A stretch of 63,822 nt of DNA from Ignavibacteria bacterium. GTDB lineage: Bacteria; Bacteroidota; Ignavibacteria; Kapaibacteriales; UBA4661. The DNA is taken from contig CANHDJ010000017.1 in NCBI GenBank assembly GCA_947459425.1, forward strand, positions 1-63,822, read 5' to 3'. Each line of letters begins with the position of its first letter. The first letter of the stretch is position 1. A program made the position numbers and the translations under genes. The notes under the pieces were generated by a model that did no database searches, was not told the DNA's origin, and saw only the letters and a program-made list of their open reading frames with translations. This document shows, in pieces, positions 92 to 53,357 of this stretch.

Positions 92-155
92 ATGACATTT
101 TGCTATGAAATTTTCATTCCATTTTTTTGATGACCTGACCAGTTACTTTTCAATT

Positions 156-42392: not shown

Positions 42393-42473
42393 GCGAGAGC
42401 CTCGCTCAAAGCAGCGAGACCCTCGCAAAAGCTCGTCCCCGCGAGGCTCTCGTTTCTTAACGAGGGCCTTGCT
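42393..42473. repeat. Paired REP hairpins, copy A (opposite arrangement)
   Basis: Unit 1 at 42393-42426 and unit 2 at 42438-42473 are imperfect hairpins of the same family that flanks the RAYT gene. Here each unit is flipped relative to copies B-D: the plus strand shows A/C mismatches in unit 1 and G/T pairs in unit 2. It fills the gap between the lipoprotein start and the end of the 779-residue OmpA gene. Confidence 0.85.
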
Positions 42474-42483
42474 TCGGAAAACA

Positions 42484-44823
42484 CTACCGCACTGGCGTTT
42501 CCACCCGCACTTCCACCGTGCGAGAGTAGAAGCGCCCTTCGGGCAGTTCATTCGGATATTTGATGATGCTGCTTCCCAAGCCCTTTGCCGTGCGCTTTCC
42601 GCGAGTAATTGCCGTAGCAATGGCTTCGGCACGTTCTTGCGAAATGCGCTGGTTAATAGCTGCCGTTCCCGTAATGTCGGTATAACCGCGTACCAGGATC
42701 GTGGACTCATCCTTGACGTTCGGACGGACAAACTCCACCATGATTCGCTCAATATCCAACGAGAGTTGGGATTGCTCAAAAGCGAAATTGATGAGACGAT
42801 ACTCGTCAATTTCCTTATCGGCAACACGTTTGCGGCGTTTTTCCTGCACCGTGCGCAATTCCACCGGAATCGCCGATTCCGCCTCGCCTTCGCGTCCGGC
42901 GGCATCGCTGGCAAAAAGAGAAAACTCTACGGGCTTGCTCACACGCGGCGCGGAGGCACGGCGGGCGTTCAAATTCCACACGTATTCCGGCGGCAATGCT
43001 CCATTTTCGCGGACTTGGCGCAAAAACTTTTTGTCCTGCGTCAAATCAAGCGCCCATTCCGTAACCGTTGCCGGACGACCCCGCCAAAAGGCTTGCATCC
43101 GAAAGACCACATCGGGCGGATTCGAGATACGAAGCGTGTCATAGACCAGAACAGGCTTCAAGATATTCCAATCATCGCTGTAAAGTTCCACACGGCGATT
43201 GTCTTCCTCGCCAAGCGCAACATCGGTCGCATTGGACGACTTCTCCGGCAGCCCGCGCGATTCCAATTTCAGCCGATTTGCCGCAATTCCCCAGACGTTA
43301 CGCAAATACTCCGCAACCGCCTCAGCCCGGCGCAAGGCGATTTGTGGTGCATTTTCCTCTGATTCCGGTCCTAAGCCGATTTTCCCCAAACATCCCACAA
43401 TACGCAGTGTTGATGCGGTATTGCGCTTCATACGCTGCCCCACGACGTTCAGCATCGTATAGTAAATATCCAGCGTTTCTGCGCCTGTCAGCCGTGCTTC
43501 ATCGAACGTTTGCGCTTCGGCGGGCTGCAAACGCCGATACCGCGCCGGAATCAAGCCCGAAAAGCGGTCAAAGAAGATATACGCCAAAAGCGGATACATC
43601 TGCGCAGAAATAAACTCTTCGGTTACAACCCTCACCAATCCTGATTCTTTGCCCAAACTATCCACCGCAACAGCATTGACAATCAAGCGCAAATCGTCGC
43701 CCGGCGCACCGGTGACGATTTCCAACGGTGTCCGCAGGATTTTGGGCGGCGGAAGCGCTTTGGGCGCAAATTCTTTGGCAAGCGCTTGGGTAAAAGAATC
43801 ACCTTGCAAAGCAGATTCCGCCTTGCTTCCCGCCAAAGCCGACCGCGCACCGGCAGCAAAATAGAGCGAATCCACATTGAGCGGCAAGGGCGGAATCTCA
43901 GGTGGCGGCACGGCATACCGCAAGGCAAAGCCACCTTTGAGTGCGTTAATTTGCCACGCCAAACCGCCGACAAGCGTCGTCAAACCGTAGTCCGCAATAA
44001 TTTCCGGCGTGAGAATCACCGTTTTATCGGCAGTAAGCGGAATATCCCATCCCAAGCCCGCCACCAGTGATGCTTGCAAGGGCAAAATCTGCGGCAATGC
44101 AGCACCCGAAGCCACATTCCGCTCTTGAAGCCCGCTCACATACCGCGCCCGTCCCGTCGGTTCAAGGAGTTCTTCGCGTTGTGAAAAGCCCGTTTGCCAA
44201 AGGTATGCACCTCGCAAACCTGCATAAAAACTCAGCCCCAAGCTATCAAAGGGCTTCCAAGCGCCCAACACCTGAGCGCCCGCCGAACGAATACGCGCCG
44301 CCAATGTATGCCGAAACACCGCTTGAATCCTTGTTCCGTCAATACTTATCAATGCTGGTTCGTTGGCAATAAATTGTGCGTCCTGCAACGCCGCGTCAGC
44401 ACGGAACGAGAGAAAAAAGCGCTTTGCAAACGTCTCTGCATCTTGCTCCGAAGCATCATTTGTTGGACGAAAAAGCGACATTGGCACATCCACCACTACG
44501 CCGACACTTCCGCCAACACCTGTTCCCAAGCGGTATTCCGGGCAACACGCCGCCACGCCGGGCAGCGCTGTGAATGCGCCAGTATGGATATTCCCTGCAC
44601 CAGCCAAAAAGCCGCCATAGCGCATGGTTGCAGGGCTTTGAGCAAAAGCATCTCTTGAAAAAACAAGCGTGATACAAAAAATGATACAAAAAATGAGTAT
44701 AGAGCGAGGGTCTGCCTTCTTAGGCAGGCTCTCGCTTACAAGGGAACTTACTATGCCTGTGCAGTGCCGTATCGAGAGCCTCGCCGAGAAGCGAGACCCT
44801 CGCGTCTGAGTAATTACGTTCAT
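42484..44823 (-). CDS. Large OmpA-family outer-membrane protein with two OmpA-like domains
   Basis: A 779-residue protein. After a signal peptide (ILIFCIIFCITLVFSRDAFAQ) residues ~65-320 are barrel-like (MRYGGFLAGAGNIHTGAFTALPGVAACC ... VGGLAWQINALKGGFALRY). A first OmpA-like domain lies near 470-570 (LRIVGCLGKIGLG ... NRRVELYSDD). The C-terminal OmpA domain has FAFEQSQLSLDIERIMVEF and ILVRGYTDITGTAAINQRISQERA. The only standard start codon is ATG 44823, in an ATGA overlap with the upstream stop. The first ~40 residues are thus read through a REP pair before the signal peptide begins. Confidence 0.85.
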   Translation of the reverse strand: MNVITQTRGSRFSARLSIRHCTGIVSSLVSESLPKKADPRSILIFCIIFCITLVFSRDAFAQSPATMRYGGFLAGAGNIHTGAFTALPGVAACCPEYRLGTGVGGSVGVVVDVPMSLFRPTNDASEQDAETFAKRFFLSFRADAALQDAQFIANEPALISIDGTRIQAVFRHTLAARIRSAGAQVLGAWKPFDSLGLSFYAGLRGAYLWQTGFSQREELLEPTGRARYVSGLQERNVASGAALPQILPLQASLVAGLGWDIPLTADKTVILTPEIIADYGLTTLVGGLAWQINALKGGFALRYAVPPPEIPPLPLNVDSLYFAAGARSALAGSKAESALQGDSFTQALAKEFAPKALPPPKILRTPLEIVTGAPGDDLRLIVNAVAVDSLGKESGLVRVVTEEFISAQMYPLLAYIFFDRFSGLIPARYRRLQPAEAQTFDEARLTGAETLDIYYTMLNVVGQRMKRNTASTLRIVGCLGKIGLGPESEENAPQIALRRAEAVAEYLRNVWGIAANRLKLESRGLPEKSSNATDVALGEEDNRRVELYSDDWNILKPVLVYDTLRISNPPDVVFRMQAFWRGRPATVTEWALDLTQDKKFLRQVRENGALPPEYVWNLNARRASAPRVSKPVEFSLFASDAAGREGEAESAIPVELRTVQEKRRKRVADKEIDEYRLINFAFEQSQLSLDIERIMVEFVRPNVKDESTILVRGYTDITGTAAINQRISQERAEAIATAITRGKRTAKGLGSSIIKYPNELPEGRFYSRTVEVRVETPVR
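44704..44804. repeat. Paired REP hairpins, copy B (inside an OmpA gene)
   Basis: Unit 1 (44704-44735) is GCGAGGGTCTGCC, loop TTCTTA, GGCAGGCTCTCGC. Unit 2 (44773-44804) is the inverted form with GCGAGACCCTCGCG as its right arm. Both keep the two G/T (or A/C) mismatches of the family. The pair lies in the translated 5' end of the 779-residue OmpA gene. Confidence 0.85.
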
Positions 44824-51887: not shown

Positions 51888-52541
51888 ATGACAATCAAAA
51901 CCTTTGATTCATGGGATACCGACGATATTGAGCGCACCTTTCATCTGCGCCGTGTGCTAGATTCTCCGACATTGCAATCTTGGATTGACGTTCCCACGCT
52001 CACCTCGCTTGATGCAACAACGCGACAGAATCTTGAGGCATTGCGGCAGAAAATCTTCCTCTATGGTAGCGGGTGGAATGAAGATGAGTTAAAATTTCAC
52101 TTTATTGCACCATTGGTAAGCATTGTAGATTTTAGCATTGAAGCGAAAAACATTCACGCCTTCACGCAGCGCACGATGACGGCGACCATCAACGATATTG
52201 AACTATCGGGACGGGTAGATTTTGTCGTCGCAACGGGCAAGACAAAGCCGATTCAGCCCTTTTTCTTTTTGCATGAATACAAAAAAGAATTTGCCGGAAA
52301 TAGCGACCCACGCGCCCAACTTTTGGCGGAAATGCTTGCTGCACGAGCCTTAAACGGTGTTGACTATCCGATGTACGGCTGCTATGTTGTCGGGCGAATG
52401 TGGTTTTTTGTGGTTCTTTCGGGCAGCGATTATGCAGAAAGCCCGGCATTTGACAGCACACAACCTGACGTTTTCAACATCCTTGCCATTCTCACCGAAG
52501 CAAAAAGAATTATTGGCACACTGGCTGATGATTATGTGTAG
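51888..52541 (+). CDS. Orphan PD-(D/E)XK nuclease-like protein
   Basis: A 217-residue soluble protein. The core looks like a PD-(D/E)XK nuclease fold: Asp111 in ELSGRVDFVVATG, then a beta strand PFFFLHEYKKE with Glu130-x-Lys132. These are preceded by an N-terminal helical part (ALRQKIFLYGSGWNEDELKFHFIAPLVSIVDF). A family of such short proteins is common in Bacteroidota and cyanobacterial genomes without assigned function. No methyltransferase or specificity gene is adjacent, so it is not a standard restriction system. It lies between the MITE and a REP pair next to the RAYT gene. Confidence 0.6.
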   Translation: MTIKTFDSWDTDDIERTFHLRRVLDSPTLQSWIDVPTLTSLDATTRQNLEALRQKIFLYGSGWNEDELKFHFIAPLVSIVDFSIEAKNIHAFTQRTMTATINDIELSGRVDFVVATGKTKPIQPFFFLHEYKKEFAGNSDPRAQLLAEMLAARALNGVDYPMYGCYVVGRMWFFVVLSGSDYAESPAFDSTQPDVFNILAILTEAKRIIGTLADDYV

Positions 52542-52558
52542 GATAATAATGCACTCTT

Positions 52559-52666
52559 GCGAGGGTCTCGCTGCCTTGAGCGAGGCTCTCGCTCTCCACC
52601 AAACGCTCTTTCGCCGAAGCAACAGAAAAAAGCGAGACCCTCGTTAAGAAACGAGAGCCTCGCGGG
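52559..52666. repeat. Paired REP hairpins, copy C (5' side of RAYT)
   Basis: Unit 1 (52559-52592) is GCGAGGGTCTCGCT, loop GCCTTG, AGCGAGGCTCTCGC: 12 standard pairs and two G/T pairs. Unit 2 (52631-52666) is inverted, AGCGAGACCCTCG, loop region TTAAGAA, ACGAGAGCCTCGC. The pair ends 37 nt before the RAYT start. Confidence 0.92.
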
Positions 52667-52703
52667 GAGTGGTAAAATTTTCCTCACAAAAAACAGACTG
52701 ACG

Positions 52704-53246
52704 ATGAAGGTCTATCACAACCATTATTATCACATCTACAACCGCACTAATGCTCACGAGACGGCTTTTCGCACCCGCGAAAACTATGGGCATTTTTTGA
52801 AAAAATATCGAACTTTGGCGGAGAATATTTTCGAGACAATAGCATATTGCCTCATGCCGACGCATTTTCATTTTCTTGTTCGCGTTTCAACGGAGGAAAC
52901 AAGTACGACAGGAGCAGTGTTGGGAAAAATCCTTTCTTCCTACACGCAAGGCTTCAATCGGTATTGGAGTCGGCATGGCAGCTTGTTCCAACAGCACACC
53001 AAAGCAATTTGTGTGGACGATGAACGATATTTGCTGGCGCTGTTAGCATATATTCACAACAACCCTGTTCGTGCGGGTTTGGTGGCATTGCCGGAAGAAT
53101 GGGAGTTTTCGAGTTATCAAGACTACTGCGACCTGCGTAACGGTACGTTGCCGAATAAACAACTTGTCCACGACTATTTCCCAAGCGTCCAAGCCTTTCG
53201 GGAATTTTCTGTGCAACAAGCCGAACAGCCAGAGTTTTGGGTGTGA
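52704..53246 (+). CDS. REP-associated tyrosine transposase (RAYT, Y1/HUH)
   Basis: A 180-residue IS200-like TnpA_REP protein. It opens with MKVYHNHYYHIYNRTNAHE. The HUH metal motif is PTHFHFLVR (His54, His56) and the nucleophile is in SSYTQGFNRYW (Tyr80). The family C-terminus is DDERYLLALLAYIHNNPVRAGLV ... EWEFSSYQDY. RAYTs cut and rejoin single-stranded REP hairpins and are usually domesticated single-copy genes. Paired REPs sit immediately on both sides (copies C and D) and two more occur within 11 kb upstream. ATG 52704 is the family-like start, although the frame is open back through copy C. Confidence 0.95.
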   Translation: MKVYHNHYYHIYNRTNAHETAFRTRENYGHFLKKYRTLAENIFETIAYCLMPTHFHFLVRVSTEETSTTGAVLGKILSSYTQGFNRYWSRHGSLFQQHTKAICVDDERYLLALLAYIHNNPVRAGLVALPEEWEFSSYQDYCDLRNGTLPNKQLVHDYFPSVQAFREFSVQQAEQPEFWV

Positions 53247-53271
53247 ATTTCGCGTGGAAACGGACGTTCTT

Positions 53272-53357
53272 GCGAGGGTCTCGCTGCCTTGAGCGAGGCT
53301 CTCGCTCTCCACTTACGCCAAAGCGAGACCCTCGTTAAGAAACGAGAGCCTCGCGGG
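53272..53357. repeat. Paired REP hairpins, copy D (3' side of RAYT)
   Basis: Unit 1 (53272-53305) is base-for-base the same as unit 1 of copy C. Unit 2 (53322-53357) is identical to unit 2 of copy C. Only the spacer differs (16 nt here, 38 nt in C). The pair begins 25 nt after the RAYT stop and ends ~105 nt before the propeller kinase start. Confidence 0.92.

Follow-up and report, generated by a model that had tools for sequence, protein, structure and literature searches.

A RAYT gene between wobble-marked REP pairs in an Ignavibacteria genome, and REP copies beside the ends of small transposons

Introduction

According to the available text of PMC8266576, a RAYT acts on just one of the two strands of a folded REP, and in E. 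coli the irregular zone of the REP stem matters for activity; the same text studied the use of perfect versus irregular stems, and of the REP versus its complement, through two distant RAYT groups. REPtrons are likewise published, as is the finding that they do not seem to move as a whole (PMC6006769, available portion). The accessible part of PMC3733652 presents REP dimers enclosed by other inverted repeats (GTAG-15 of Anabaena variabilis and CGTC-1 of H. neapolitanus) and notes that such transposases show no clear correlation with REP families. A literature search, covering mostly papers open without subscription, found none joining TnpA-REP with Kapabacteria.

Here we analyse a RAYT locus in a 63,822-nt stretch (the window) of an Ignavibacteria bacterium genome (GCA_947459425.1, contig CANHDJ010000017.1). 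A RAYT gene between its REPs is an arrangement already known from other bacteria, and the novelty in FCB bacteria that an original prediction had claimed for it gives way to the published Bacteroidetes RAYT classes flanked by REP-like structures (PMC6006769, in the portion available). More unusual are two wobble pairs that hold fixed places in most stems, and the position of some REP copies beside the ends of unrelated small transposons. We conclude that the locus is very probably a REPtron: the gene of a domesticated single-strand transposase (RAYT) is flanked left and right by REP hairpins, further copies of which are dispersed in the genome.

Results

The RAYT gene and its flanking REP pairs

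The gene and the four REP units around it are as follows (the strand given for a unit is the one with G.T pairs).

52559..52592, + strand: upstream REP unit 1 (covariance model R1, 46.9 bits; folding)
52632..52663, - strand: upstream REP unit 2, with swapped arm order (R1, 50.5 bits; folding)
52704..53246, + strand: RAYT (TnpA-REP) gene, 180 aa from the ATG, with HUH motif H54-F-H56 and catalytic tyrosine Y116 in YIHNNP
53272..53305, + strand: downstream REP unit 1, identical to upstream unit 1 (R1, 46.9 bits)
53323..53354, - strand: downstream REP unit 2, identical to upstream unit 2 (R1, 50.5 bits)

The list of open reading frames also gives the RAYT frame from an upstream TTG, the 180 aa being the reading from the ATG, and the longer version from 52557 (229 aa) was set aside, as its start falls inside the REP. 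The identification as a RAYT was borne out by the HUH motif and single catalytic tyrosine, with H54, H56 and Y116 invariant in 19/19 and 35/35 alignment rows, and by the predicted structure, which matched the RAYT structure far above the IS200/IS605 transposases. The RAYT model NF047646 of NCBIfam scored the protein at 65.2 bits, under its curated cut-off of 80, which belongs to one naming model and is no defining trait of the RAYT family. A sequence search of solved structures gave a weak match to 4er8 alone (E 0.14), and a PHROGs search gave E 0.016.

REPs lie on both sides of the gene, as in a REPtron. The upstream repeat blocks (45 nt with unit 1, 52555-52599; 38 nt with unit 2, 52629-52666) end 37 nt before the ATG, and in the downstream ones (53268-53312 and 53320-53357) the first hairpin starts 25 nt past the stop codon. 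As originally predicted, the RAYT gene sits between two REP pairs of the same order: both blocks are 100% identical between the flanks, an identity that extends beyond the hairpin stem, whereas the spacers between paired units differ in length and sequence. Within each pair the units are opposed. A 12-nt arm with up to 2 mismatches matched 27 times in the window against 3.71 expected, and none of 100 shuffles reached 27. The covariance model placed two further pairs of the family in the window.

42394..42471, no strand assigned: REP pair in divergent order, with no transposon ends seen
44705..44802, no strand assigned: REP pair, with a 10-of-14 match to a transposon end (see below) 1 nt beyond its right unit, under the 11-of-14 threshold

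The REP family across genomes

The original prediction also called for a search for REP copies beyond the window, and these were found. With a covariance model built from 39 hairpins, scoring the best 150 candidates per genome and counting units at E <= 0.01, we obtained 41 units in this genome, at least 130 in genome G004, 57 in G002 and 13 in G005; the same search gave no unit in the 6 remaining genomes. Two of the 41 overlap, being alternative readings of the tandem array on contig 49. Grouped by hand, this genome's units fall into 23 places, most holding opposed pairs and some single units, so that the inverted pair is the dispersed unit, as in REPINs. L052 1513-1643, on contig 49 of this genome (G000), repeats REP arms in tandem every 25 nt and has one transposon-like end, to its left.

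In 92 hairpins from the four genomes (59 distinct), 97.0% of stem cells were paired, compared with 85.3% after shuffling, 77 cells were changed on both sides of the stem (shuffled mean 16.6), and stem covariation was 0.350 versus 0.136 in shuffles. Further pair types did not rise above shuffles in these 92 hairpins (77 of 500 shuffles reached the observed value).

Units of the window's family are present in G002 and G005, whose assemblies lack a RAYT of the window's clade. Two REP pattern families do not track RAYT presence: the CCGTYCTACG type occurs in 7/8 genomes of the genus, including G005 (36 matches per strand), where the RAYT search gave nothing beyond a weak match.

Wobble pairs and the difference between strands

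Unit 1 pairs fully on the + strand, two G.T pairs included, and unit 2 does likewise on the - strand, and the opposite strands of both carry A.C at these positions. DNA folding gave -12.2 (G/T strand) versus -8.8 kcal/mol (A/C strand) and -11.8 versus -8.9 kcal/mol, the G/T strand being more stable in all four folded units, by 2.9 to 3.8 kcal/mol. On the A/C strand a 3x3 internal loop was present in the best fold of three of the four units and in the centroid of the fourth; for unit 1 it appeared in the centroid only, the best fold being two small hairpins of equal energy.

That two G/T pairs per unit on one strand, with A/C on the other, constitute a kept feature, as had been predicted, was supported across the family: G.T was retained at the two positions in 54/59 and 51/59 distinct hairpins, and at both in 49/59. 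Remaining stem positions were Watson-Crick in 52 to 59 of 59, with the exception of the loop-closing position (43). The conservation of the two wobble positions is partly selected for, because the first 39 hairpins were found by arm patterns that hold these positions and the model derived from them found the others; the inner covarying stem positions are absent from the seed arm patterns.

The motif GT[AG]G, at most 14 nt 5' of the hairpin, was found on the A/C strand in 16/92 units and on the G/T strand in 6/92, against a background of 207/3900. Both unit 1 copies at the RAYT gene have it on the A/C strand, a few nt from the stem; it is on neither unit 2 of the RAYT flanks in the window, and a minority of the 92 units carry it. 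Its excess on the A/C strand hints faintly that this strand could be the substrate.

We propose that RAYT would bind one strand of the REP while this is single-stranded and folded into a hairpin, as happens at replication forks, would cut beside the hairpin through Y116 and would then rejoin the strands; REP pairs would in this way be copied or moved, with the RAYT gene staying put. The two fixed G.T pairs make the predicted folds of the strands differ: one strand forms a continuous stem, and in the other the stem is interrupted around two A.C positions. We hold with moderate confidence that the interrupted (A/C) strand is the RAYT substrate.

RAYT relatives and mobility of the locus

RAYT matches were found in 49 of 149 genomes, the window's own included, the weakest being perhaps other Y1 proteins. 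In named genomes a relative is encoded in at least 579 of at least 586 stretches among the matches listed, and 80 loci were kept; the closest named relative among these listed matches is on JAAFIV010000016.1 (Ignavibacteria bacterium bin62), at 62%. A tree whose bootstrap is not fully settled united the window RAYT and both G004 RAYTs in one clade (100/98) and set the G002 and G007 RAYTs, which have other hairpins, apart as a pair (97/99). Both G004 RAYTs are flanked by the same hairpin core as the window gene, with paired C-to-T / G-to-A changes around one of them, and the G002 RAYT has a different hairpin family on the single flank within its contig; the hairpin family differs between these RAYT clades (window/G004 versus G002).

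To the original prediction, the near-identity of the two flanks had suggested recent movement or active upkeep. A repeat of at least 13 nt common to both gene flanks is, however, frequent: it was present in 48/70 RAYT loci from several phyla and absent from 22/70, compared with 1/64 control pairs taken 1.2 kb further out. These 70 loci are the window and 69 of the 80 named ones (11 with a short flank on one side were excluded before counting), and the test scores shared repeats rather than palindromes, a few matches being of low complexity (e.g. L115). Nor do the two G004 RAYT loci, one of whose genes has an internal stop, speak for recent movement: they are 68% alike over the gene, and outside it blastn (E <= 1e-3) finds nothing. 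Mobility of the whole module was rejected on this restriction of similarity to the gene, and the 'self-contained module' finds no backing as a mobile unit in this assembly (86.6% complete), which has a single RAYT copy. An empty-site test was of no use, the upstream neighbour belonging to a many-copy family, and a synteny test met a G002 homologue of the downstream kinase that is cut by a contig end. This upstream neighbour (51888-52541, + strand) has no Pfam match, and its family is matched 6 times in this genome and as many as 19 times in a relative of the same genus.

Stems in the genus have one or two wobbles in G000, G002 and G004, and G007 has palindromes with mismatches (by eye). In a neighbouring family with seven RAYT loci, L060, L061 and L064 are flanked by perfect-stem palindromes plus some imperfect copies; around these RAYTs, 53-58% identical to the window protein, the flanking palindromes are perfect or nearly so. 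With perfect stems in these relatives and wobble-marked stems in the genus, swaps between such close relatives could serve to map a change in recognition.

REP insertions of at least 18 nt inside the gene were found in 7/73 related loci and not in the window gene; a minimum of 13 nt gave 8 matches, of which one poly-A/T was set aside, and the controls gave 2/73, both of 13 nt. In L059, L060 (1791-1823), L063 and L064 (1697-1729) the flank palindromes also occur inside the RAYT gene with no stop, between the HUH and Tyr motifs according to the alignment. L061 (1323-2386) has a RAYT with 33-nt palindromes, some perfect, every 43-44 nt on both sides, resembling a CRISPR array at first sight.

Transposon ends beside REP copies

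Many REP copies away from RAYT genes adjoin a 14-bp, inward-pointing GTAACTATTCAGGT. Requiring at least 11 of 14 bases within 130 nt on at least one side of a REP place, we found such ends at 9/21 non-RAYT places here (4 on both sides), at 11/26 examined places in G002 (2 on both sides), at 1/27 examined non-RAYT places in G004 and at 0/3 in G005, compared with 3/326 control windows; at RAYT genes they numbered 0/6 (0/2 here, 0/4 in G004). Other thresholds (10 of 14, 45 nt) gave 11/23 here, 8/10 in G002, 0/11 in G004 and 1/2 in G005, so that at 11 of 14 and 130 nt the share in G002 is lower and G004 has one case where it had none. The G002 and G004 places were taken best-scoring first among the matches listed and are hence non-random, and the place counts leave out L268-L270 (short, at contig starts), one further pair on G002 contig C32 and several additional units. 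An exact joint pattern of transposon end and hairpin arm, with zero mismatches, gave nothing in 8 genomes and was replaced by this mismatch-tolerant test on stretches around REP places.

Elements with both ends numbered 11, of which 9 had both flanks readable, and 4/9 showed 7 or 8 of 8 target-duplication bases, a match reached by 0/2490 random pairs. None of these four carries the window hairpin family, two of them carrying another, and the three two-ended elements with the window family show 1, 4 and 5 of 8 bases. The combination of a GTAACTATTCAGGT-ended element with the window hairpin family may be mobile.

Several related elements were observed. A 202-bp element with the same inverted ends, without these hairpin pairs, is present in three copies (L094 1501-1702, L099 1-202, L106 1313-1514), and in the only copy whose two flanks are readable the 8-bp target duplication is perfect. 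Elements of 155-157 bp with the same ends (L084 1501-1655, L102 1501-1657, L104 1501-1655) carry another hairpin family, CCCGTCGGGCGGC, with two wobble pairs in the one element checked, L084; those of L102 and L104 have perfect 8-bp target duplications. The ends of IS66 elements, together with a 30-aa reading frame at the edge of the window, raised the suspicion that an IS66-type transposase owns the GTAACT ends; this owner was discarded, PF03050 having no match in this assembly and the 30-aa stretch none in Pfam. The contig itself begins inside an apparent mobile element with end GTAACTGGTCAGGT (window 133-146, - strand), also seen near several other contig ends, and a multi-copy insertion sequence may break this assembly at such ends.

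Discussion

The predicted fold, the catalytic residues, the flanking REPs, their genome-wide copies and the stem covariation with kept wobbles are features we observed at this locus and in its family. Weighing against the REPtron reading are the NF047646 score under its cut-off, the GT[AG]G motif in a minority of units, the selection of the first hairpins by patterns holding the wobble positions, the further pair types not above shuffles, and the REP units in G002 and G005. Could the hairpins belong to another miniature transposon, one that ends in GTAACTATTCAGGT and duplicates 8 bp of its target, and their position beside an unrelated RAYT be a coincidence of insertion? The enrichment of ends at non-RAYT places here and in G002 over control windows, the duplications in 4/9 readable two-ended elements, and the presence in two of those four of another hairpin family, with two wobbles where checked, would fit such an origin. 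We consider it improbable, since pairs around RAYT genes lack the ends, 26/27 other places in G004 (the richest genome, with two same-clade RAYTs) and 3/3 in G005 lack them too, two-ended elements with the window hairpins match at no more than 5 of 8 duplication bases, and repeats are shared across the gene in most RAYT loci. Even less likely are transcription terminators or RNA processing signals flanking the transposase gene by chance, for although the larger part of 13/23 elements falls outside reading frames of >=150 aa (99/829 control positions) and the hairpins fold stably, their inverted pairing, kept wobbles and dispersal, the identity beyond the stem on both RAYT sides and the variation of hairpin family with RAYT clade all count against it.

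Compatible with the REPtron reading is a tentative and rather doubtful extension of it, in which REP pairs of the genus would be spread by two unrelated enzymes, RAYT acting on single-strand hairpins and a double-strand transposase moving the GTAACTATTCAGGT-ended miniature transposon, with its 8-bp target duplications, and REPs as cargo. If this is true, genomes that lack a cognate RAYT, such as G002 (11/26), could keep and spread their REP populations by the second route, and a genome with two cognate RAYTs, G004, would hardly use it (1/27); G005, a small sample, does not fit. REP pairs beside transposon ends suggest how REPs might survive the loss of their transposase, and this would be relevant to the lacking correlation between transposases and REP families noted in the accessible part of PMC3733652.

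Comparison with known systems

With the E. coli REPtron (TnpA-REP, group 2 / subclass 2.2; 4ER8) the locus shares the whole-protein predicted fold, a single gene flanked by REPs, and long REP hairpins with a conserved irregular zone, important for activity in E. coli (PMC8266576, available text). The asymmetry made by the A.C positions here is in kind that of the E. coli REP bulge, and these positions could serve alike. The two differ in that the proteins are 14% identical, that the DHLH and WE published for subclass 2.2, in the sources as available, are THFH and (by eye) FQ in the window protein, and that the irregularity here consists of two A.C positions around one pair, with a GTAG tag that is weak or lacking.

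RAYT subclasses 2.4 and 2.6 (Bertels groups 4 and 5; Bacteroidetes and other phyla), compared here by motifs against a published table, resemble the window RAYT in host group and in YIHNNP, which fits both, and the in-gene REP insertions that mark subclass 2.4 occur in related loci. Unlike them, the window protein has T for N in its HUH motif and F for W in the WQ motif, and the REPs of the genus have irregular stems, a trait published for subclass 2.2 in the available portion of PMC6006769.

The REPINs of Pseudomonas fluorescens also have two inverted REPs as the dispersed unit (PMC3116915, available text), whereas here there are two unit types, one with swapped arm order, and transposon ends adjoin some of the pairs. 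REP pairs inside transposons of the GTAACTATTCAGGT kind do not appear in the available parts of PMC3116915 or PMC3733652. Like GTAG-15 and CGTC-1, as presented in the accessible part of PMC3733652, the copies here include REP dimers enclosed by other inverted repeats; unlike in those cases, the enclosing repeat also ends hairpin-less elements, some with 8-bp target duplications.
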